From: Photorhabdus bodei
Lineage (GTDB): Bacteria > Pseudomonadota > Gammaproteobacteria > Enterobacterales > Enterobacteriaceae
Direction: 5' to 3'
Assembly (NCBI RefSeq): GCF_003287735.1
Contig: NZ_NSCM01000013.1
Coordinates: 1 to 64,000, forward strand
Length of the DNA: 64,000 nt
Every line of letters starts with the position of its first letter. The first letter of the stretch is position 1. The notes under the pieces are model-generated. The model searched no databases and was not told the DNA's origin. It worked only from the letters and a program-made list of their open reading frames with translations. A program made the translations under genes and the position numbers. Below are positions 3,789 through 47,970 of this stretch, one piece after another.

Positions 3789-4793
3789 ATGAACACTATC
3801 GCACTGATTGGCATCGATCTCGGCAAACATTCTTTTCATGTCCATTGTCAGGAGCAATCGGGAAAAGCTCTGCTACGTAAAAAATTCACCCGAACTAAAT
3901 TGATGGAATTCTTAGCCGATTGCTCTCCGGCAACGGTGGTGATGGAAGCCTGTGCTGGCGCGCATTTCATGGCAAGGCGGATCGCTGATTTGGGGCATGA
4001 GGCTAAGCTGATTTCACCGCAGTTTGTCCGTCCTTTTGTCAAAAGTAACAAGAATGATTTTATTGACGCGGAAGCCATCTGTGAAGCCGCCTCACGACCT
4101 TCAATGCGTTTTGTTCAGCCCAGAACGGAAGCCCAACAAGCCATGCGAGCGTTGCATCGTGTCCGGGAATCACTGGTCCGGGATAAAGTCAAAACCACCA
4201 ATCAGATGCAAGCTTTCCTGCTTGAGTTTGGCATCAGTATGCCCAAGGGGATTGCCGTGATAAAACGACTCTCCACTGTTTTGGCCGAACATCCTCTTCC
4301 ATCTTATTTGGCGCAAATATTACTACGGTTACAGGCGCATTATCACTATCTGGTTGGGCAAATCACCGAGATTGAGACCGCACTGTCACAGGAAATCATT
4401 CAGGATGATACCGGACAACGGCTGATGACGATCCCCGGTATTGGTCCCATCACGGCGAGTGTGCTTTCCTCACAACTGGGTGATGGAAAACAATATTCTC
4501 GCAGCCGGGATTTTGCGGCCTCGACGGGTTTGGTTCCCCGCCAGTACAGCACCGGGGGAAGGACGACCTTATTGGGTATCAGTAAACGGGGTAATAAGAC
4601 GCTCCGGCAACTGTTGGTACTCTGCGCCCGGTCATTCATGCAACAGATTGAACACCGGCAGGGAAAACTGGCTGACTGGGTTAAGCAGCAGCTTGAACGA
4701 AAGCACTCTAATATCGTGGCCTGTGCATTGGCTAATAAACTCGCCCGGATAGCGTGGGCCATTACGACACAACGCACGGTATTTGTCGCCTAA
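3789..4793 (+). CDS. IS110-family (IS1111-group) transposase
   Basis: DEDD-type recombinase of 334 residues, full length for the family. The RuvC-like N-terminal domain shows GIDLGKHSFHVH (first Asp), VMEACAGAHF (Glu) and KSNKNDFIDAEAI (Asp pair). The C-terminal Transposase_20 domain shows LMTIPGIGPITASVL and AASTGLVPRQYSTGG, which holds the family's catalytic Ser. Such enzymes insert without target duplication and are guided by an RNA made from the element's own non-coding end. The frame is intact, so the element may still be active. It has jumped into an IS630 transposase gene on the opposite strand. Confidence 0.95.
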   Translation: MNTIALIGIDLGKHSFHVHCQEQSGKALLRKKFTRTKLMEFLADCSPATVVMEACAGAHFMARRIADLGHEAKLISPQFVRPFVKSNKNDFIDAEAICEAASRPSMRFVQPRTEAQQAMRALHRVRESLVRDKVKTTNQMQAFLLEFGISMPKGIAVIKRLSTVLAEHPLPSYLAQILLRLQAHYHYLVGQITEIETALSQEIIQDDTGQRLMTIPGIGPITASVLSSQLGDGKQYSRSRDFAASTGLVPRQYSTGGRTTLLGISKRGNKTLRQLLVLCARSFMQQIEHRQGKLADWVKQQLERKHSNIVACALANKLARIAWAITTQRTVFVA

Positions 4794-32121: not shown

Positions 32122-32352
32122 ACTCCATAGAACGTTATAATTTTATCTACTGTTTTGATTTTTCAATGCTTTTGTCTGCTGTAATAGAAAAGCAATGAAA
32201 TATAAGGTTTTTTAATGAATAACAGGGGAGGTTAAACCGTCAGACTCATCGGGTCAAGTATAAATAAAATTTATTTGTTTAATAAATTTGCAGAATAAGC
32301 TTAGCAGAAATCTGTATTACCGGCCATGAAGTGGTAGCCAAATAACCAAGCG
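32090..32352 (-). repeat. cpxA 3' end plus O-antigen leader, original of the duplicated block
   Basis: This segment is repeated in diverged form at 15272-15535. Here the cpxA codons are intact and the leader feeds wbpA, so this is the parental location. Confidence 0.8.
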
Positions 32353-33687
32353 TAAGCCGCCGAGTGGGCTGTCCTCAGCACGAACCCAACCGCGGTGCTG
32401 GTTAATCGCGGTTTCAACAATGGCTAAGCCAAGGCCAGTGCCACCGGATTCTCGATCGCGGGCTTCGTCTGTACGGTAGAAAGGGCGGAATATGTGTTCA
32501 CGGTCTTCCGGGTTGACGCCTGGGCCGTCATCATCAACGGTAATGGTGATCCCTTGATTATCGGTGTGAAATACGACCGCAATATGGTGGTGGGAGTAGC
32601 GTAAGGCATTACGCACGATATTTTCAAAAGCACTGCCAAGTGCTAATGGGTTGCAGTAAATTGCCCAGGAACTCGGTGGTAAGGTTACTTCAAGGGTTTT
32701 ATCCATCTGTTCAGCTTCGAAGCGGGCATTGTCAAGAATATCGTTCCATAAATCTGTCATTTTGATGTTTTCTCTCAACAGTTCATTTTTATGCTGACTG
32801 CGGGAGAGTACTAACAGATCGTTAATCATGCTGTCTAGCCGTTGGGCTTCTGTCTCTATTCTTTCCAGCTCTTTATTTTCACCATGACGGCGGCGAAGTA
32901 ATGCTGTCGCAAGTTGTAAGCGAGTGAGAGGCGTGCGTAGTTCATGGGAGATATCGGAAATTAACCGTTGTTGTGCGGTGACCATTCTTTCCAATACATT
33001 GATCATCTGGTTGAAGCTGTTACCGGCGGCCAGAAATTCTTGTGGGCCAGCTTCCAGTTCTGGATGCTGGCGTAAATTACCTTTAGCAACATCGTCTGCG
33101 GCATTTTTTAATTTACGGGCAGGCTTAGCCAAACTCCATGCCAGCCATAATAGGAGTGGCGCACTGATTAACATGGTGGCAGTTAATAATAATAGTGGCC
33201 GGTCGAACATCAGATTAATAAAATCCGATTGTGGGCTATTCGCTGGACGAACTAAATAAAGTTGATAATGATCTTCTCCATCTCGAATGGAAAAGGGCCC
33301 TAGCATTTCAGAGCGGCCATATTTTTTCTTTTTAGGATGATCAGCGTTATCTGATTGTCCAATAAAGTTACGGACAACTTGCATTTCACTTCTTTGCGCG
33401 CCAATAACGCGCCCTTCGCTGGTGACCAGTATTAGGCGCTGACTTGGGGGGGCCCATTTTTCAATCGCGCGAAATAAACGGCGCCACCAAAGTAAATCGT
33501 TAGCGGGATCTTGAGCTAATTCAGCTTCGATATGTTGTTCCAGCATGACTCCCTGCCGGTATTCATTTTCCAGCAGAGAGGTCAGTTGTCTGGAATCCAG
33601 TTTCGGCACCATTAATACCAACATTAGGACTAACGCCAGAGTAAACCAGAAAATTGCGAAGATGCGTGCCGTCAAACTGTTTATCAT
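32317..33687 (-). CDS. cpxA: Envelope-stress sensor histidine kinase
   Basis: 456 residues. Two transmembrane helices (about 7-28 and 165-186) enclose a periplasmic sensor domain of usual CpxA size; a HAMP segment follows, then the H-box ISDISHELRTPLTRLQ with the phosphorylated His, and ATPase boxes NIVRNALRYS, TVDDDGPGV and GGTGLGLAIV. It autophosphorylates and phosphorylates CpxR, and acts as a phosphatase when CpxP is bound. It overlaps cpxR by 4 bp. It lies at the border of the O-antigen operon. Confidence 0.97.
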   Translation of the reverse strand: MINSLTARIFAIFWFTLALVLMLVLMVPKLDSRQLTSLLENEYRQGVMLEQHIEAELAQDPANDLLWWRRLFRAIEKWAPPSQRLILVTSEGRVIGAQRSEMQVVRNFIGQSDNADHPKKKKYGRSEMLGPFSIRDGEDHYQLYLVRPANSPQSDFINLMFDRPLLLLTATMLISAPLLLWLAWSLAKPARKLKNAADDVAKGNLRQHPELEAGPQEFLAAGNSFNQMINVLERMVTAQQRLISDISHELRTPLTRLQLATALLRRRHGENKELERIETEAQRLDSMINDLLVLSRSQHKNELLRENIKMTDLWNDILDNARFEAEQMDKTLEVTLPPSSWAIYCNPLALGSAFENIVRNALRYSHHHIAVVFHTDNQGITITVDDDGPGVNPEDREHIFRPFYRTDEARDRESGGTGLGLAIVETAINQHRGWVRAEDSPLGGLRLVIWLPLHGR

Positions 33688-34379
33688 GTCGCAGAAACCA
33701 TTAAATATCCTCGGCCACGTAAGGTCTTAAACCAGGGGAGTCCATCTTCCCGCTCAGGCAATTTACGGCGTAGGTTAGAGATATGCATATCAATTGCGCG
33801 GTCAAATGGCGTGAGTCGCTTACCTAATACTTCCTGGCTCAAATGTTCACGGGAGACAACTTGACCTAAATGTTGAGCTAATAGATAGAGCAAAGTAAAT
33901 TCGGTACCGGTTAAATCGAGAATTTGATTAGCAAAGTTGGCTTCCTGTCGGCCAGGGTTCAATTGTAGGTTATCGACCTGAAGCGTGGGTGGGCCATTGT
34001 CTGTTTGCTGTTGTTCACTCCAGTTTGAGCGGCGAAGAATAGCACGTATACGTGCCACTAGCTCACGATCATTAAATGGTTTGGCAAGATAGTCATCTGC
34101 CCCTAATTCTAGTCCCAGAACACGATCCAAATCACTTCCTCGCGCTGTCAGCATGATGACTGGAGTTTGATGGTGTAGACGAAGCTCCTTTAATGTCGTA
34201 ATGCCATTTTTACGCGGCATCATAATATCGAGTAGTAATAAGTCGATAGAATCGTCAAGGAATTTTAATGCCTGCTCTCCGTCATGAGCGACAACAACGT
34301 TAAATCCTTCCATTTCAAGTAATTCTTTTAATAGTGATGTCAGTTCACGGTCATCATCAACTAATAGGATTTTATGCAT
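33684..34379 (-). CDS. cpxR: Envelope-stress response regulator
   Basis: 231 residues, OmpR/PhoB type. The receiver domain has the acidic pair in LLVDDDREL, the phosphoacceptor Asp in DLLLLDIMMPRKNG and the Lys in LAKPFNDREL. The C-terminal winged helix contains LTGTEFTLLYLLAQ and FDRAIDMHISNLRRKL. Phosphorylated CpxR binds GTAAA-N5-GTAAA boxes; one lies in the 157-bp gap to the divergent cpxP and should control both. Co-transcribed with cpxA. Confidence 0.97.
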   Translation of the reverse strand: MHKILLVDDDRELTSLLKELLEMEGFNVVVAHDGEQALKFLDDSIDLLLLDIMMPRKNGITTLKELRLHHQTPVIMLTARGSDLDRVLGLELGADDYLAKPFNDRELVARIRAILRRSNWSEQQQTDNGPPTLQVDNLQLNPGRQEANFANQILDLTGTEFTLLYLLAQHLGQVVSREHLSQEVLGKRLTPFDRAIDMHISNLRRKLPEREDGLPWFKTLRGRGYLMVSAT

Positions 34380-37477: not shown

Positions 37478-37756
37478 ATGGAGACGATTCATTTTCGTAT
37501 TGATGAAGAAACCAAGCGTTTAGCCATGCAAGCTGCCAAACGCCATCAGACAGACTTAACAAAGTTAATGAGACAAAAAGCCGAAGAGTTGGCGAATGAA
37601 GAACGTGAGTATCAAAAAAATACCCATGCTCACTGGTTAGAAGCGGAAATTGAGAAAGCAATTGACCGATGTGAAAATGGTTTGGCTCATTTCATCGATG
37701 ATTCTGAAAGTCATCATCGGATGGCTCTACTGCGTAATAAGCTGAGCAGGGGATAA
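37478..37756 (+). CDS. Antitoxin of a type II pair (ribbon-helix-helix)
   Basis: 92 residues. The N-terminus METIHFRIDEETKRLAMQAA fits a ribbon-helix-helix of the RelB/DinJ kind, followed by a charged helical tail that could wrap the toxin. A strong ribosome-binding site (AAGGAGGGTG) precedes the ATG. The toxin gene starts one base after its stop. The opposite orientation to parDE shows it is an independent module. Confidence 0.8.
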   Translation: METIHFRIDEETKRLAMQAAKRHQTDLTKLMRQKAEELANEEREYQKNTHAHWLEAEIEKAIDRCENGLAHFIDDSESHHRMALLRNKLSRG

Positions 37757-37757
37757 A

Positions 37758-38063
37758 GTGATACGTCTTTCATGGGAAGAAACCGCCCAAACTGACCGGG
37801 AGCAAATTTATTTCTACTTCTTTGAACAGGCTGGGCTGTTATTGGCTGATAAAGTTGATACAAAATTTTCGGAAATGGCTGAACTTCTGAAAGTTAGCCC
37901 ATATGCAGGCGTAAAGGCTCGTAACAGCCCAGATAAACGTTATAGAAAACTCGTTGTCCCTCATTTTCCTTTCATCATGCTCTACCGTTACGATGAGGAT
38001 ATAGAAAATATAAAAATTCTCAGAATATTGCACACCTCCAGAAGAATAACCGGGCTTTTTTAA
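37758..38063 (+). CDS. RelE/ParE-family toxin
   Basis: 101 residues starting with GTG (IRLSWEETAQTDREQIYFYF), with the family's core YAGVKARNSPDKRYRKLVVP, then HFPFIMLYRYDE and KILRILHTSRR. Fold and length fit a RelE/ParE toxin; whether it cleaves mRNA or attacks gyrase is open. A strong terminator follows at 38146. Confidence 0.85.
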   Translation: MIRLSWEETAQTDREQIYFYFFEQAGLLLADKVDTKFSEMAELLKVSPYAGVKARNSPDKRYRKLVVPHFPFIMLYRYDEDIENIKILRILHTSRRITGLF

Positions 38064-41370: not shown

Positions 41371-41374
41371 ATTG

Positions 41375-42190
41375 GTGAATAAAACTATCTTGAAATGGGC
41401 AGGCTCTAAAATTCGCATTATGGATAAATTGCTACCCCATCTGCCAGCAGGTCAACGGTTGGTTGAACCGTTCGCAGGTTCATGTTCTGTAATGATGAAT
41501 ACGCAATATGATGCGTATTTAATTGCAGATGCTAACAGCGATTTAATCGATATGTATCAATGCATCAAAGAAAATTGTGATGGATTTATAAATGCTGCGC
41601 AAGACTGGTTTTCGTATTTTAATAGTGAACATGGGTTTTATTGTCTGAGAGCTTTATTTAATTCTGATGATGAAAAATATAAATCGCAGATATGGCGCGC
41701 ATCGGTATTTTTATTTCTAAACCAGCATTGCTTTAATGGCCTGTGTCGTTATAACTCAAAAGGTGAATTCAATGTGCCTTTTGGGAACTGTAGAAAACCT
41801 TACTTTCCCGAAGTAGAAATATTGGCGTTTGCTGAGAAATCCAAGATTGCTTCTATCCATCGTGCCGATTGGCGCGAAATACTGAAACTGGTTGATTTTG
41901 GGGATATGGTTTATTGCGATCCGCCTTATTTCACCAACGGCGTTAATTTCACGCAGTATTGCAAAAATGGCTTTCTTCATCATGACCATAAGGAGCTGGC
42001 GACTTCTCTGAAACAGCTTAATGAATTATTGGGCGTTCCTGTCACAGTGTCCAACTCCATTGAGGCCAAAGAACTTTATGCCGATCTGGGGTTCACTATC
42101 CATGAAATCGAAGCACCCCGCACCATTGCCGCCAATGGCAATCGTCAGCCAGTAATAGAAATTATTGCGACGCTAGAGGCGAGTGCATGA
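41375..42190 (+). CDS. dam: DNA adenine methyltransferase (Dam-like)
   Basis: About 271 residues. Motif I is LKWAGSKIRIMDKLLPHLP followed by VEPFAGSCSVM, and motif IV is MVYCDPPYFTNG, defining the D12-class N6-adenine methylases that act on GATC. No ATG is present; GTG at 41375 (or TTG at 41372) is the start, with CGGAG about 10 bp before. Phage Dam may protect against host restriction or tune replication and packaging. It overlaps gene A by 4 bp. Confidence 0.92.
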   Translation: MNKTILKWAGSKIRIMDKLLPHLPAGQRLVEPFAGSCSVMMNTQYDAYLIADANSDLIDMYQCIKENCDGFINAAQDWFSYFNSEHGFYCLRALFNSDDEKYKSQIWRASVFLFLNQHCFNGLCRYNSKGEFNVPFGNCRKPYFPEVEILAFAEKSKIASIHRADWREILKLVDFGDMVYCDPPYFTNGVNFTQYCKNGFLHHDHKELATSLKQLNELLGVPVTVSNSIEAKELYADLGFTIHEIEAPRTIAANGNRQPVIEIIATLEASA

Positions 42191-44319
42191 GTGAGTTAAT
42201 CGACTTGTTGCAGGAGCACAACAGCGATTACCAGCAGTCAAAACGCCTGCAATATGAGATGTTCAAGCCCGGTTTGCCCGGCGAGTCAACGTTAGCTGAA
42301 CAGATCATGTGGCAGGTAAACCCTGATGATTATGACTGGCGTCATAAAATTATCGGTGATATGCCCGATTTTTTGGCGCTCTATTTTGCTACTCGGTACA
42401 AAAAAATATTTACCCAATCGGGGGGTGATCGCCGTCGTGCTAATACGTTTTTGCGTCAGTTTGGCGAGAACGTATTACCACGGCTGAATAAAGTCACTGA
42501 ACGCTATCAATTCAAGGATCAGGTATCCGGCGTTACCCCGTTCCCCTTTATTGAGCAGTTAGAGCGATTGGTTACGTTGGAGCGTAAGGATATCAAACAG
42601 CTTGCCTGGGGAATTTCCCATTTTATGGCCGAGAACTACGAAAATACATCGGCTCAGTATGTCAATCAACAACCTGCGAGCGAACAAGACGCCAGAGAAC
42701 GTTTGATCCGTATCTATGAGTTACTGGCAAAACTGACTCAACAAGCTGGCACAACAGCCCCTTACTGGCAGCAGTTCACCAAAGGCAGGGAAGGCGCCAC
42801 AGTCGATCAATTGTGTGCCGGCCTCCTGCGCATGATGTCGGATAAATGGTGGTATGCCCGCTTGAAAAGAATGCGTGATATTCGCGCTGAGCATATGGCT
42901 ATTGCGGTAGGTCAAGTGCAGAAATCAGCCTCTCCCTATGTTTCCCGTAGTACGCTGCGTGAATGGTTGGAACAGAAGCGCCGCAATTGGGACTTTATCA
43001 AACAGTTTGATGTTGAGAATGAACAGGGCGACAGGGTGCCGCTGGAAGATATGGTACTCGGTAGTGTGGCTAATCCTGCTGTCCGCCGTAGTGAATTGAT
43101 GGTGAGAATGCGCGGTTTTGAAAATCTGGCTGACGAACTCGGCTATGTCGGTGAGTTTTATACCATCACTGCTCCATCAAAATGTCACGCTGTCCATAGT
43201 GTCGGTGGCTTTGTTTCAAATTGGAATGGGGCCAGTCCCCGTGATACACAAAAATATTTGTGCAACGTCTGGGCGAAAATCAGGGCGGCTTATTCCCGTG
43301 CGGGGATCAGCGCCTTCGGTTTTCGTGTAGTTGAACCTCACCATGATGGGACTCCTCACTGGCACATGTTGCTGTTTATGCGTCCTGAGCATGTCGATGA
43401 AATGCGCGACATCATGTGTTATTACGCCCGGTTGGAAGATTCAGAAGAATTACAGGGGCAAAAGGCACTAAAAGCACGATTCCATGTGAAGCCCATCGAT
43501 AAAGCGAAAGGTTCGGCTACAGGCTATATTGCTAAGTACATTTCTAAGAATATTGACGGTTACGCGCTGGATGGCGAAAAGGATGAGGAAACAGGCCAAC
43601 TTCTTAAGGATATGTCATGGTCTGTTGCTGCTTGGGCCAGTCGTTGGCGTATCCGGCAGTTTCAGCAGATCGGCGGTGCGCCCGTTTCCGTCTGGCGCGA
43701 ATTGCGTCGTTTGCGTGGTGATGAGCAAATCTTGCCTGATGCAGATATGGATAATGTCCGATTTGCTGCGGATGTGGGGGACTGGTTCGCCTATACCGAG
43801 TTCCAAGGTGGGCCTCTGGTTGCACGAAAAGATTTAACCGTGCGGTTGTCCTATGAAATCACCGAACAGGGCAATGCCTACGGCGAAAATGTGTTGCGTA
43901 TTTCTGGTGTCTATTCACCCAGCTTGGGCGATTCCTCTTCTTTTATTACCCGTACTGTTAAATGGAACATTGTTCCTAAATTTAACGCTGATGTTAAGGG
44001 TGTGGGTTTGGGGTTTTCTGGCGGCTCTGCCGCCTCTTGGAGTTCTGTCAATAACTGTACGGGGTGTGACAGTACGGTCAGAGGCGGTGATCTGTTAGTG
44101 GAAAAAGTTATCGATTATGCGGATTCAATCGGCATGGATTTTAGCCGGGCTATGGCGAAGTCATTAATCATCGGAGGAAAAATCAACATAGGTGAACAGT
44201 TGTTCAAGTTATGGACGGATGGCAGTTTTATTCCGATAGAGACGGAATGTCAGAAAGAAGCCCGTCGCGATTTGTTGTGGCAGCGGATTAAGAATATTGG
44301 TGAAATGAGGAATAAATGA
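42187..44319 (+). CDS. A: Replication initiation endonuclease (P2 gpA)
   Basis: 710 residues. HUH endonuclease: metal-binding HHDGTPHWHMLLF and the tyrosine pair in GYIAKYISKN, the same arrangement as the two active Tyr residues of P2 gpA, which nicks its origin and starts rolling-circle replication. The N-terminal 300 residues and the C-terminal tail match the usual gpA size (about 760 in P2). The origin is expected inside the gene but was not located. Last gene of the early operon. Confidence 0.95.
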   Translation: MSELIDLLQEHNSDYQQSKRLQYEMFKPGLPGESTLAEQIMWQVNPDDYDWRHKIIGDMPDFLALYFATRYKKIFTQSGGDRRRANTFLRQFGENVLPRLNKVTERYQFKDQVSGVTPFPFIEQLERLVTLERKDIKQLAWGISHFMAENYENTSAQYVNQQPASEQDARERLIRIYELLAKLTQQAGTTAPYWQQFTKGREGATVDQLCAGLLRMMSDKWWYARLKRMRDIRAEHMAIAVGQVQKSASPYVSRSTLREWLEQKRRNWDFIKQFDVENEQGDRVPLEDMVLGSVANPAVRRSELMVRMRGFENLADELGYVGEFYTITAPSKCHAVHSVGGFVSNWNGASPRDTQKYLCNVWAKIRAAYSRAGISAFGFRVVEPHHDGTPHWHMLLFMRPEHVDEMRDIMCYYARLEDSEELQGQKALKARFHVKPIDKAKGSATGYIAKYISKNIDGYALDGEKDEETGQLLKDMSWSVAAWASRWRIRQFQQIGGAPVSVWRELRRLRGDEQILPDADMDNVRFAADVGDWFAYTEFQGGPLVARKDLTVRLSYEITEQGNAYGENVLRISGVYSPSLGDSSSFITRTVKWNIVPKFNADVKGVGLGFSGGSAASWSSVNNCTGCDSTVRGGDLLVEKVIDYADSIGMDFSRAMAKSLIIGGKINIGEQLFKLWTDGSFIPIETECQKEARRDLLWQRIKNIGEMRNK

Positions 44320-44399
44320 TGAAAGTTTTTGTGGTAAAGCACAAGTTTATTGATTACTCGAAAATTGTCGGCATTTTTCTATCAGGGGGAGAAATTTAG
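44319..44399 (+). CDS. Possible 26-residue small protein after gene A
   Basis: ATG overlaps the stop of gene A; the frame reads MKVFVVKHKFIDYSKIVG to a stop at 44399. The tight overlap with A favours translation, but the length is minimal and no family was recognised. Confidence 0.35.
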   Translation: MKVFVVKHKFIDYSKIVGIFLSGGEI

Positions 44400-44459
44400 A
44401 GGGTAAAACGTTCCTTAACCCCAGTCGTCAGTGATGTTTTGATGGGAATGAACTGTTAG

Positions 44460-44609
44460 AATGCAAAATGGGAAGTAAATCGCAATTTATCCCCATTTGT
44501 CTGGCAAGCAATATTAAGTGAGGAAGTTAACGAGTTCGCACAGGTCATTTGCATGATGAATATGGCAGTGATCACGCAGGAACGGCATGCGCGGAGATGG
44601 TGCTGGTAG
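44460..44609 (+). other. Start-less open frame at the left edge of the cargo region
   Basis: 50 codons open from just after a stop, with no ATG, GTG or TTG until near its end; it reads LSPFVWQAILSEEVNEFAQV and then MMNMAVITQERHARRW. It looks like a piece of a phage gene cut when cargo entered. A similar start-less piece lies on the other side at 46653. Confidence 0.4.
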
Positions 44610-44666
44610 CAGCAGTCGCTCTGCAAATGAACTTTAATGCAAATGAGGAAATAAAATAGTACAGAA

Positions 44667-44691
44667 GAGCACATTAATATGAAATGTGCTC
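44667..44691. terminator. Hairpin between gene A region and the KAP gene
   Basis: GAGCACATT/AATGTGCTC, a perfect 9-bp stem with 7-nt loop. It is between two convergent genes and may end transcription from both sides; T-rich stretches flank it but are short. Confidence 0.65.
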
Positions 44692-44723
44692 ATTGGTTTT
44701 CATTAAAATTTTGATGAGTAGTT

Positions 44724-46550
44724 TTATTCTATTCCCTCATACTGTTTCGATTGTTTATTTTTATGCTTGTCAACAATCTCTTTTAGAGCATGTATCATCC
44801 ATTTAATTCTAACTTTCTCAAGTCCAATTTTATTATCGTTGGTGGCTTCAATATTTTCAATAATATCTTTAAGCCATTCCATTTCCAGATTAACAACATT
44901 ATCATGGCAATATCTTGTAAGTAGAGCTTTATTAATTATAGCCTGCTGTTGAGGTGGTTTAGATAACCATTTTTTAACGAATGTTTTAGGAGGTATCTCA
45001 GCCAAAATAGCTATACTGGAATACATCCCTTCATATTGATGATTTCTTGTGATTAGATTTCCGAATTCATTGACATTGTTATCTAATTTGCTGATTATAT
45101 CTTCTGCAAATTTAGGGTATTGCTTTATTAAGCAATCTTCTGTTCTCTTATTAAAGTATTCCTTTAATTCGTTTAATTTTTTCTTATCCACATACTCTTC
45201 AAAGAACAAATAACTGTATCCATCATATGAAAAATCATTTCTATAATTATAATCATTTGAAATTAAATTGTTATACGGTAATTCATCTTGTTCATATAAA
45301 TAATCTATATAATCTTTGCACTTTATAAATGTATCATCAAAATCAATATTGATAACTTTTAAAGTAGAAAACATAAGCATGCAAGAAAACACATGTAGCA
45401 AATCTCCCTCATTTTTTTCTAATTTTTCAGAAAAAGTTTTTTGAATATCACTGACAGCATTATTTACAACATTCTGATCTAATTGACTAAGATTATAAAT
45501 CTTTTTCCATGATTTTATATTAGAACTTCCTTTTGTCATTAATATAATATTATTAACTGACTCTTCTATTTCGTTGGGGTTAAATACACCATTAAATAAT
45601 ATATCAGCCAATATATCATTGGTTAGAACTGGATTGTAAAAATTAATACCATTGTATTTTTCAAGCTTTTTCACAAGTGTCGAATCGAAAATCTCATAAG
45701 ATGACTTGGCACGTAAATCTTTTTCGACCAGTGAGGATTTTTTCACCTCAATACATATGGCTACAAACATTGATGTCATGTCCAGAATAATTTTCTCATA
45801 CTCAAGATGTTCGTTTTTTAAACATCTATATAATAAATCTAAATTAATAATAATTTCATTTAAAATTCTAAGTGACTTGCATTCAGACTGTTTGAAAATG
45901 CCAGTAATGTGCTCTCTATATTTTTCTAAGGTTTCCTTTGATATTTTATTTTCGATAAAAGAAATAAATGCATTATCTAGATCAGGGTGTAGTTTTACTG
46001 TATATCCAAAGACCTTTTCTTTCATCTCTTTGAATTGGTCTTCTAATTTTTCATCATGAGTTATAGCAATAACATGGCATTTATAGTGTTCAACGTACTT
46101 ATTAATTACACCAAGTAATTCTTTTGAATTAAGCGAAGATCTTTCTAAATCATCAAAAACAATTACTCTATCATTTTTTATATCATCTGAAATAATCTTT
46201 TTTATAATGGAATCACCTAAGTCAGATAGTTTTAAATTAATACCACTTATATTTACTGTTGATAAAACTCCACGAGATAATATTTTTGCAACACTTTTAA
46301 CTGGGTGCATTTTTGCAAATAAATCAGCATGAATTTCATCAGCATTATTTGTACCGAATAAACTCACATAATACATTTCGTTATTCTTTAGGCATTCTTT
46401 TATTGAGTGTGTTTTTCCTACCCCCCAATCACCAGTTACGAGGACAGCATAACCGGGTTGTTTTAGGCTTTTATAAGTGTTGATACAGTTTTCAAAATTT
46501 TCTTTGGATTTCATATTATCCTCTAATTTATAATTCATAAATGAAACCAT
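44724..46550 (-). CDS. KAP-family P-loop NTPase, candidate anti-phage cargo
   Basis: 608 residues. The N-terminal domain is a KAP-type P-loop ATPase: Walker A TGDWGVGKTHS at 39-49, Walker B VIVFDDLERS at 129-138, and sensor-like HVIAITHDEKL near 160. The remaining 400 residues are helical, AT-rich and not recognised. No transmembrane helices are evident, unlike classical KAP proteins. It lies between A and Q, a site where P2-like phages are known to carry exchangeable defence genes, has its own orientation, and is far more AT-rich than flanking phage genes. Related KAP proteins include PifA, which excludes T7. Defence is inference from fold and place. Start at 46550 or the next Met at 46538. 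Confidence 0.75.
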   Translation of the reverse strand: MVSFMNYKLEDNMKSKENFENCINTYKSLKQPGYAVLVTGDWGVGKTHSIKECLKNNEMYYVSLFGTNNADEIHADLFAKMHPVKSVAKILSRGVLSTVNISGINLKLSDLGDSIIKKIISDDIKNDRVIVFDDLERSSLNSKELLGVINKYVEHYKCHVIAITHDEKLEDQFKEMKEKVFGYTVKLHPDLDNAFISFIENKISKETLEKYREHITGIFKQSECKSLRILNEIIINLDLLYRCLKNEHLEYEKIILDMTSMFVAICIEVKKSSLVEKDLRAKSSYEIFDSTLVKKLEKYNGINFYNPVLTNDILADILFNGVFNPNEIEESVNNIILMTKGSSNIKSWKKIYNLSQLDQNVVNNAVSDIQKTFSEKLEKNEGDLLHVFSCMLMFSTLKVINIDFDDTFIKCKDYIDYLYEQDELPYNNLISNDYNYRNDFSYDGYSYLFFEEYVDKKKLNELKEYFNKRTEDCLIKQYPKFAEDIISKLDNNVNEFGNLITRNHQYEGMYSSIAILAEIPPKTFVKKWLSKPPQQQAIINKALLTRYCHDNVVNLEMEWLKDIIENIEATNDNKIGLEKVRIKWMIHALKEIVDKHKNKQSKQYEGIE

Positions 46551-46652
46551 CGGTAATTGTTAGATTCTGTGTAGCTGCCTTTTAGCTGCTAGTAATTAGT
46601 TTGAACTATTAAATTTACTGATAATTAATAGAATATGTACACACCATCAATC

Positions 46653-46838
46653 TTAGTAGAAAACCACCCATTTTGCGCACCAATCCGCAAGATCAAACAA
46701 GGATCTCATCCCCTGTAAAGCATCAGCACTAGCTTCTTTCAGATTGTCTCTTGCATGTGCATGAAAAACACTACATTTAGTGAGCAGGCGCGGCGGGGTC
46801 ACGACTGCGCGCAGCAGCGTCTGGTAGCTGTGCTGGTC
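46653..46838 (-). other. Start-less open frame at the right edge of the cargo region
   Basis: 61 codons open to a stop at 46653, with protein-like content: VVTPPRLLTKCSVFHAHARD and then LFDLADWCAKWVVFY at the end. No ATG start; an ATG at 46849 (MKFETS) is out of frame by one base, so a frameshifted small gene is likely. A GTG within the frame would give 47 residues. Confidence 0.4.
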
Positions 46839-46935: not shown

Positions 46936-47970
46936 CTATTTGTCCTCGTTCATATCCAACGAATACTGTTCAAATCGGATCACCTCCTCACCAATCCAGT
47001 CATTTAATTGTTTCATTTTACTTTGCAGCGGCATCAGTTCATTACGTACAAACACCTTAGCCGCCTTCTCCACATCACCAAAACCGCCGGTATTCTGTGG
47101 AATAATCCCCATCATCTGCGGTGGTACACGGTGCGCGGCCAGTATGTCGTCACGGCTGGCATTCTTGATATTTAAAAATTCATCCTTAGCCGCGGCTTCA
47201 GACAGTGGAATGGTCTGGATACCGTCTTTTTTACCGCCCGGCGCATATAAAAATAGATTGCGGAAATTACCCGGCCCCTTGGCATTTTTCAGCGCGTCGC
47301 GAATATTATCGATATCGGACAGGTTTTGTGACGCATCACTGATATACAGGATGTAACCCGCATGGGAACCGTTCAGGTAATACTTGCGGCGAAACAGAGT
47401 GGCCGACTCATTCAGCAGCGCCGACGGCAAAGCAGCTAAATACTCCGGCAATCCGTAAAGTTCCTGATTAATGTCGGGTTCAATCAGATGAAACACTTGC
47501 CCCGTCGGGAACGGGTATGGCTGGCTGTTGTAGCCATATTTCACAAACCAATAGGTTTCCAAGTCTTCGCCGCGTCGGGTGAACTTGGCCGGGCAGTGAT
47601 TCAGCTTCAAAGGCTGGCCGAGGCGATTCTTGCGTTGTTCAAGATAGGCATTGCCAAACAGTATAAAGTCCAGCGCCCATGAGTCGAATGCCTGTCGGCT
47701 AAGTAGACGGTGTGGGATAAAGGTACTGGTCAGGATGTTGCGTTTGACATAAACCGCGCTGCTGTGGTGCGGCGCCGAGCGAAACGACAGCGCCAGCCCG
47801 TTAAAACTGATTGGCGGTTCATACCAGTTATCGACCAGTACACACTCCAGATAATCAAACACCTCGCGCCGGTCAAGGACCGGGATCGGATCGCCAAAGG
47901 TGAATGCTTCAATCGATGGGCTGGCTGTGGTTTTCACCGTCGGGCTGCGTTTTCTGTTTTTACGGCTCAT
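46936..47970 (-). CDS. Q: Portal protein (P2 gpQ)
   Basis: 344 residues, the same as P2 gpQ. Portal family features: EAFTFGDPIPVLDRREVFDY near the start, PISFNGLALSFRSAPHHSSA, and the late block AAHRVPPQMMGIIPQNTGGF. It forms the dodecameric DNA channel of the head. Start overlaps the stop of P by one base; both are leftward, opposite to the other late genes, as in P2. Confidence 0.96.
   Translation of the reverse strand: MSRKNRKRSPTVKTTASPSIEAFTFGDPIPVLDRREVFDYLECVLVDNWYEPPISFNGLALSFRSAPHHSSAVYVKRNILTSTFIPHRLLSRQAFDSWALDFILFGNAYLEQRKNRLGQPLKLNHCPAKFTRRGEDLETYWFVKYGYNSQPYPFPTGQVFHLIEPDINQELYGLPEYLAALPSALLNESATLFRRKYYLNGSHAGYILYISDASQNLSDIDNIRDALKNAKGPGNFRNLFLYAPGGKKDGIQTIPLSEAAAKDEFLNIKNASRDDILAAHRVPPQMMGIIPQNTGGFGDVEKAAKVFVRNELMPLQSKMKQLNDWIGEEVIRFEQYSLDMNEDK

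Follow-up and report, generated by a model that had tools for sequence, protein, structure and literature searches.

Genes at the locus

The window, meaning the whole stretch of 64,000 nucleotides that was analysed, contains a P2-like prophage in which an AT-rich gene, called the KAP gene here, lies between the genes for gpA and gpQ (A and Q; Table 1). The preliminary description of this DNA had reported at this place an AT-rich gene encoding 608 residues with the Walker A motif TGDWGVGKT and the Walker B motif VIVFDDLE. The reading frame at 44724-46550 (-) is real, with its Walker B motif read as VIVFDDLER, and its GC content is 27.7%, against 48.2% in gpA and 50.3% in gpQ.

To judge from the sequence, translation probably starts at Met13 (46514), 12 codons after the listed start, because AGAGGA precedes Met13 while the ATG at 46550 has no ribosome-site-like sequence 5' of it; the product of the later ATG would have 596 residues. 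The distance to Walker A fits either start: 24-29 residues precede the motif in 15 of 31 clade relatives, fitting Met13 (27 residues), and 38-43 in 11 of 31, fitting Met1 (39 residues), all of these distances resting on mechanically chosen starts. No promoter-like site is listed directly upstream of the KAP gene. The hairpin between the convergent genes is weak, since terminator-like sites in the region number three against 1.1 +/- 1.3 in shuffled sequences. The sole ORF listed between the KAP gene and gpA (72 aa) has no match in PADLOC, PHROGs or NCBIfam. On the other side of gpA, directly upstream of it, a D12-class adenine DNA methyltransferase is encoded at 41372-42190 (+).

Table 1. Features at the KAP locus, with positions in the window
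Feature	Position	Strand	Evidence
gpA replication initiator, convergent with the KAP gene	42187..44319	+	PF05840 (Phage_GPA), E 4.9e-110
Swapped AT-rich cassette, from gpA to the conserved segment before gpQ	44316..46680	.	DNA comparison of related loci; GC
Terminator-like hairpin between the convergent gpA and KAP genes	44667..44691	+	9-pair stem, weak
PDC-S49 / KAP-type P-loop NTPase gene	44724..46550	-	ORF, 608 aa, ATG start; PADLOC, PHROGs and Pfam matches
C-terminal helical domain, candidate sensor	44727..45653	-	About residues 300-608; folded alone
N-terminal ATPase module, AAA+/KAP-like	45741..46514	-	About residues 13-270; AlphaFold model, VIA-align
gpQ portal, same strand as the KAP gene, upstream	46936..47970	-	phrog_68, E 1.3e-164

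A cargo slot between A and Q

The cassette has a GC content of 29.7% over 44320-46660, and its edges are seen in related prophages. On the right, identity to seven related loci begins at 46660-46682 and resumes at 46683 in L157, which places the junction at 46,660-46,683 in eight of the ten loci compared besides the viral contig L103; the other two match wholly inside Q-P. The left edge is the end of gpA in L157, where A-side identity stops at 44315, and L160 additionally matches 44493-44628. In L157, whose Q is 98% identical, a GmrSD/HEC-06 gene stands at the place of the KAP gene.

A scan with the portal protein of the window gave at least 595 confirmed stretches, of which 80 were kept. gpA was located in 68 of these 80, with an A-Q interval of 1,154-7,737 bp and differing contents; in the other 12 the interval was run to the end of the locus and is possibly incomplete, so that a few of the 'cargo' ORFs may not be cargo. 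The KAP protein had no match at E <= 1e-5 in any of the 80 portal loci (of at least 595; gpA located in 68). Of 133 ORFs listed with a length of 180 aa or more, 122 made up the cargo set; 11 had been left out by hand, namely the KAP gene of L103 and ten seemingly redundant ORFs, not all of which were checked. C5 methylases are the commonest among the 25 commonest Pfam families listed for the 122 ORFs (10), GmrSD_N and AAA_21 each occur five times, AAA_15 and single restriction enzymes are likewise present, and so are the non-defence families PAAR and Peptidase_S8; the scan reports families, so that defence genes among the 122 ORFs cannot be counted from it. Another KAP protein is present in this cargo (PF07693 in 1 of the 122 ORFs), and a PDC-S49-type profile built here matched none of the 122. 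Terminase_6N was found in six of the 122 (best E 2.9e-15), which is odd outside the packaging operon.

Among the loci fetched, the KAP gene lies between A and Q only in the phage type of the window and L103; megablast of the window locus against E. coli and blastn with an Enterobacter variant gave no match. A core phage gene was considered and rejected, since none of the 80 portal loci (of at least 595; gpA located in 68) shows the KAP gene and PDC-S49, the PADLOC family to which the protein belongs, is missing from 10 of the 12 genus members. The preliminary description had said that its view would be refuted if every relative kept the gene here as part of its conserved core; the gene was found at none of the 80 loci and in 2 of the 12 genomes. 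Its placing of the gene at a P2 cargo site with variable occupancy agrees with the A-Q position, the survey of 80 related portal loci and the swap in L157. In E. coli, the A-Q slot has been reported as a hotspot with 1,650 arrangements, and the same report describes other functions there, e.g., partition genes and a toxin (Rousset et al., 2022, PMC9122126). The slot, a known hotspot of defence genes in E. coli, is thus variable in this other enterobacterial genus too and carries defence-type cargo there.

Family of the KAP protein

Three PDC-S49 models of PADLOC match the KAP protein over almost its whole length (E 2.5e-117, 1.2e-91 and 2.2e-47 for residues 15-601, 16-599 and 18-595), and at E <= 1 no other PADLOC models do. 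The PHROGs match is phrog_4740 (E 4.7e-77), of unknown function. Pfam KAP_NTPase (PF07693) scores 29.6 bits with a gathering cut-off of 20, its best stretch covering only residues 18-81. Among 71 family members scanned, drawn from the 95 rows of the tree and alignment and including the KAP protein, all three PDC-S49 models match every one and KAP_NTPase matches 70 at E <= 0.001. The KAP signature consists of Walker A GxWGxGK[ST] and Walker B DD-x-[DE]-R. GxWGxGK[ST] is present in 94 of the 95 aligned full-length members and DD[LIVM]ER in all 95; G40, W42, G43, G45, D133, D134, E136, R137 and R228 are invariant in 95 rows, and K46 is kept in 94. The assignment to the KAP-type NTPases is accordingly borne out by the Pfam score and by the 70 of 71 members.

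No membrane helix is predicted in the KAP protein (highest Kyte-Doolittle 19-residue window 1.66), as the preliminary description had noted, and a window of at least 1.8 occurs in only 2 of the 95 members. Membrane helices are known from only some bacterial KAPs. Their absence alone does not make a separate branch, and the earlier suggestion of one is not supported. Nor is the gene new as a candidate defence gene, because PADLOC already lists PDC-S49, which it matches at full length; the A-Q hotspot is also published, and immunity by prophage KAPs was proposed in 2014. The gene is genuine, but it adds a further member to PDC-S49, at a hotspot of a type already described, and is not of a new kind. 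PDC stands only for phage defence candidate. A full-text literature search found no paper naming PDC-S49 and no published assay of a PDC-S49 protein, the assays met there concerning other KAP proteins, Tmn and QatA; the family is widespread across phyla, yet no published test of it was found.

Structure and selection

The AlphaFold model of the KAP protein, based on 95 sequences, has a mean pLDDT of 89.6. No relative in the PDB was found from the sequence at E <= 1. In VIA-align, residues 11-273 match TnsC (7mcs_B) with Z 14.2 (236 aligned, 4.1 A), followed by MuB (13.0) and Cdc6 (12.9); dynein, p97, NSF and RFC score only a little lower, and matches within 1 Z are tied, so that the class of ATPase is indicated, not the function. 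In a viral structure library, 12 entries matched at E <= 0.001, with low TM-scores; those with names are AAA-type ATPases or clamp loaders.

Residues 300-608 folded alone give a pLDDT of 90.8. The structure search of this C-terminal part, which the preliminary description had proposed, found no PDB match in Foldseek at E <= 0.001; the best VIA Z was 8.5, to 118 residues of the HEAT protein Kap95, a level reached by common helical arrangements. Such weak matches reflect common helical-repeat arrangements, so that no fold is assigned, and the missing match would not by itself mean a new fold. Of the 'about 400 unrecognised helical residues' described earlier, the unrecognised helical nature stands, while the extent shrinks to about residues 300-608, as the ATPase module reaches to about residue 270. 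Taken together, the models depict an AAA+-like ATPase connected to a helical domain, and the searches turned up no solved fold close to the latter.

Among the 25 closest of 36 pairs of relatives, dN/dS lies between 0.04 and 0.33 in both domains where computable; these pairs share sequences and exclude the protein of the window, and saturated dS makes several ratios unusable. Purifying selection acts on the related genes. In 23 of the same 25 pairs (of 36), dN is higher in the C-terminal part than in the N-terminal one.

Distribution of relatives

A scan of genome contigs gave 271 confirmed relatives, of which 80 were kept, from Pseudomonadota, Cyanobacteriota, Bacteroidota, Campylobacterota, Thermodesulfobacteriota and other phyla, and a scan of viral contigs gave 54 loci. 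At 1e-10, PDC-S49 is found in 19 of 394 genomes of the order of the window, in many over the ATPase part only. One of the two carriers among the 12 genomes of the genus is the source genome of the window; around the copy in the other (L253 of G399), nine P2 proteins had no match in 19.9 kb. Seven records of annotated phages match the KAP protein, none over 80% of the query, and 27 plasmid records do, three of them over at least 80% with a best identity of 27%.

The tree has 95 rows, the window protein and 94 of 98 non-redundant relatives, L142, L145, L146 and L154 having been left out by hand; in it, the KAP protein falls in a group of 32 rows with SH-aLRT 100, which includes 14 rows from viral contigs, Pseudomonas and enterobacterial ones among them. 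It stands on a long branch, with at most 32% identity to any other row. The viral contig L103 encodes an identical KAP protein and has 98.8% DNA identity to the window over 7,999 bp. In L086, L087 and L101, the PDC-S49 relative is broken into two open reading frames, which is consistent with decay or sequence error.

Relatives beside cI and int

In 12 of 134 family loci, a 186-type cI and an int lie near the KAP gene. The order is cI-int-KAP in nine loci (L028, L029, L049, L116, L117, L119, L120, L122 and L125) and cI-KAP-int in L118, and in L115 and L127 cI, int and the KAP gene follow with gaps. In seven of the nine (L028, L029, L049, L116, L119, L120 and L125), the KAP gene starts at -7 to +17 relative to the end of int; L117, in which int appears in two frames, and L122 are outside this figure. 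The repressor of L029 matches the solved 186 CI (2fjr) with E 1.6e-36, and the integrase of the same locus matches that of HP1. With their equal lengths and scores, L116 and L117 are apparent near-duplicates, and therefore the 12 loci do not represent 12 independent events.

In phage 186, cI and int are transcribed together in the lysogen. A KAP gene beside these co-transcribed genes is thus predicted to be expressed in the lysogen, a prediction that can be checked. The neighbourhood of cI and int is a probable cargo slot in 186-like prophages; a cI-int hotspot has been described in P2-related phages of Vibrionaceae (Rousset et al., PMC9122126). The copy in the window itself is not within a cI-int operon. 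In a further group, L132-L136 and L141, several of which are near-identical, the KAP gene lies about 3 kb past gene M, in the late region.

A SIR2 partner in roseobacters

In six loci of the roseobacter group (L079, L085, L093, L096, L098 and L099), the gene after a divergent relative encodes a SIR2_2 protein of about 1266 aa (1276 aa with an earlier start in L098). The partner in L079 matches Dsr1 of PADLOC with E 3e-81. The KAP relative and the Dsr1-like gene overlap by ATGA in L079, L093, L096, L098 and L099; in L085 they overlap in the same way by their coordinates, the junction lying outside the stretch printed. The Dsr1-like gene starts at about 9.9 kb within these loci and at 6.5 kb in L085. 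L079 and L085 are near-copies (99%). The search for a Dsr1-like neighbour covered 138 loci (L023-L156 and L253-L256), and the six that have one are all from roseobacter-group genera. The pairing is confined to one small divergent branch of the tree, of which L068 is without the Dsr1-like gene. No Dsr1-like SIR2 gene adjoins the KAP gene in the window, where the flanks are phage genes. From their arrangement, the roseobacter pair is suggested to form a two-gene defence operon, which provides a lead to an effector.

For genes adjacent to family members more generally, PADLOC at 1e-15 gave 155 families for 117 adjacent genes and 94 for 117 genes more than 5 kb off in the same loci, a comparison that counts families rather than genes and sets 43,898 adjacent residues against 34,166 control residues. 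Fifteen loci judged near-duplicates and ORFs below 150 aa were left out of the adjacent set. The enrichment of defence genes beside family members is only suggestive, because families are counted, the control set is shorter and defence hits occur in the distal set too.

Comparison with known systems

The KAP protein shares a full-length profile match with PDC-S49, from which it does not differ in the features compared. With the KAP P-loop NTPases (PF07693) it shares the GxWGxGK[ST] and DD-L-E-R motifs and a score above the gathering cut-off, while it differs from other KAP-family proteins in having no membrane helix and in the restriction of the best Pfam stretch to residues 18-81. PifA of the F plasmid is also a KAP-family P-loop NTPase. 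Tmn is an anti-phage protein of the KAP family with two transmembrane domains (PMC11846954), whereas the KAP protein has none and matches only PDC-S49 in PADLOC at E <= 1; a Tmn-like membrane protein was rejected on the basis of its highest window of 1.66. QatA of qatABCD is described as multimerising and binding DNA, and its deletion did not fully abolish defence (PMC12424860), so that a KAP ATPase need not be the core of a defence system. QatA is accompanied by QatB, QatC and QatD, which are absent from the KAP locus, flanked instead by gpA and gpQ.

A STAND NTPase (Avs-like) combines the NTPase with a winged helix and a superhelical sensor. By analogy, a similar logic of C-terminal sensor and ATP-driven assembly may be expected in the KAP protein, although it is without a recognisable N-terminal effector. 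The top Foldseek match is a STAND-TPR protein (6mfv_A, E 2.5e-4), but with a TM-score of only 0.21; no STAND Pfam family matches the KAP protein at E <= 1, and iSTAND was found in 1 of 71 family members. The KAP gene occupies the same genomic slot as P2 old and tin, and we know of no relationship between the proteins encoded by these or other A-Q cargo genes and the KAP protein. Exclusion of phages by old, tin and other A-Q cargo is described by Rousset et al. (PMC9122126). For KAP proteins of Campylobacter prophages, Clark et al. suggested a part in superinfection immunity in 2014 (PMC3995785). The KAP protein ORF10 of Campylobacter CJIE4 is likewise prophage-borne, with 26.9% identity over query residues 35-172 only. 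GiPD474 of a Gifsy prophage, a single protein with an ATPase and an unknown domain, confers broad phage resistance (PMC12724215); it resembles the KAP protein in this one-protein architecture, its ATPase being of the ParA/AAA_31 type and not KAP.

Interpretation

The preliminary description had proposed a single-gene defence or superinfection-exclusion system. That the KAP gene is a single gene between gpA and gpQ stands; the role in defence is only plausible. It is fairly probable that the gene serves defence or exclusion, and the odds lean modestly towards the fuller reading, in which it is cargo of the P2-like prophage and encodes a stand-alone cytoplasmic PDC-S49 ATPase that would protect the lysogen against other phages. 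The PDC-S49 match, the A-Q cargo, the GmrSD swap, the cI-int placement of relatives, the Dsr1 pairing, the selection and the clade with its 14 viral-contig rows argue for defence; set against them are the candidate-only status of PDC, the non-defence cargo at A-Q, the missing promoter-like site, the missing effector domain and the position of the window copy outside a cI-int operon. With both lists weighed, defence remains moderately favoured. The strongest new evidence is that from relatives, above all their place beside cI and int and their SIR2 partner.

A protective KAP protein would presumably be made in the lysogen. Its helical half, faster-evolving in most related pairs, might recognise a phage-derived cue, upon which ATP binding would change the shape of the ATPase module or make it oligomerise, as in other ATPase switches. 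The assembled protein could then stop phage development, most likely by aborting infection. This sequence of steps is tentative and rather doubtful in its details. The mechanism is weakest at the effector step, of which the sequence shows nothing; no known effector domain is seen in the KAP protein.

A more speculative and unlikely extension would make PDC-S49 a distinct set of membrane-free KAP immune switches expressed with the prophage repressor, in which the helical half reads the cue and the TnsC/MuB-like half assembles on DNA and blocks the phage alone, whereas in roseobacters the switch would be coupled to the Dsr1-like SIR2 protein and trigger loss of NAD. If this were true, PDC-S49 would have two roles, a defence complete in itself and a trigger for another, separate effector.

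The strongest competitor of the defence reading, though itself unlikely, is a non-defensive prophage moron, i.e., an ATPase for lysogen fitness, prophage maintenance or regulation (e.g., partition-like) in a hotspot that is merely a tolerant insertion site. Among the ATPases that the module resembles are DNA-associated ones such as TnsC, MuB and Orc/Cdc6, the protein shows no effector domain, and partition systems and a toxin gene are reported from the same site (PMC9122126). A moron fits poorly with the full-length PDC-S49 match, with the Dsr1-like operon partner in six loci of relatives, and with the occurrence of relatives in several prophage positions and many phyla, unlike a phage-specific maintenance gene.

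Exclusion might also be narrow, the KAP gene mainly blocking P4-like satellites or close P2-like phages rather than unrelated ones. One system of the slot, that of phage AC1, is reported to block P2 itself as well (Rousset et al., PMC9122126), and the superinfection immunity proposed for prophage KAPs (Clark et al., PMC3995785) would agree with such a role; the occurrence of relatives beyond P2-like phages and across many phyla speaks against it, and a narrow role is improbable. Least probable of all is a recently acquired passenger gene, silent or already inactive in this phage. Its 28% GC, against 48-51% in the neighbouring genes, the lack of a promoter-like match listed directly upstream and the split appearance of some family members elsewhere (L086, L087 and L101) are what such a passenger might show, but the ORF in the window is intact with its ATPase motifs retained, an identical protein is present in a second record, the viral contig L103, and related genes are under purifying selection.

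Other features of the window

On the int side of the prophage, 32317-34379 (-) encodes a CpxA-like sensor kinase (CpxA_peri match) and an adjoining ORF of 231 aa, which is probably CpxR. The cpx region is a known neighbourhood of P2 attachment. Beside int, two small ORFs of 92 and 101 aa abut at 37478-38063 (+); the 101-aa ORF has a weak PDB match to a plasmid-stabilisation-system protein (E 0.011) and the 92-aa ORF none at 0.1, and the two are a possible toxin-antitoxin pair. A long run of genes on one strand, mostly of low GC, extends over 6400-32000 (-), and several of them match polysaccharide-biosynthesis families; the run is likely to be a surface polysaccharide cluster, as far as these family matches indicate. 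An IS110-type transposase is encoded at 3789-4793.
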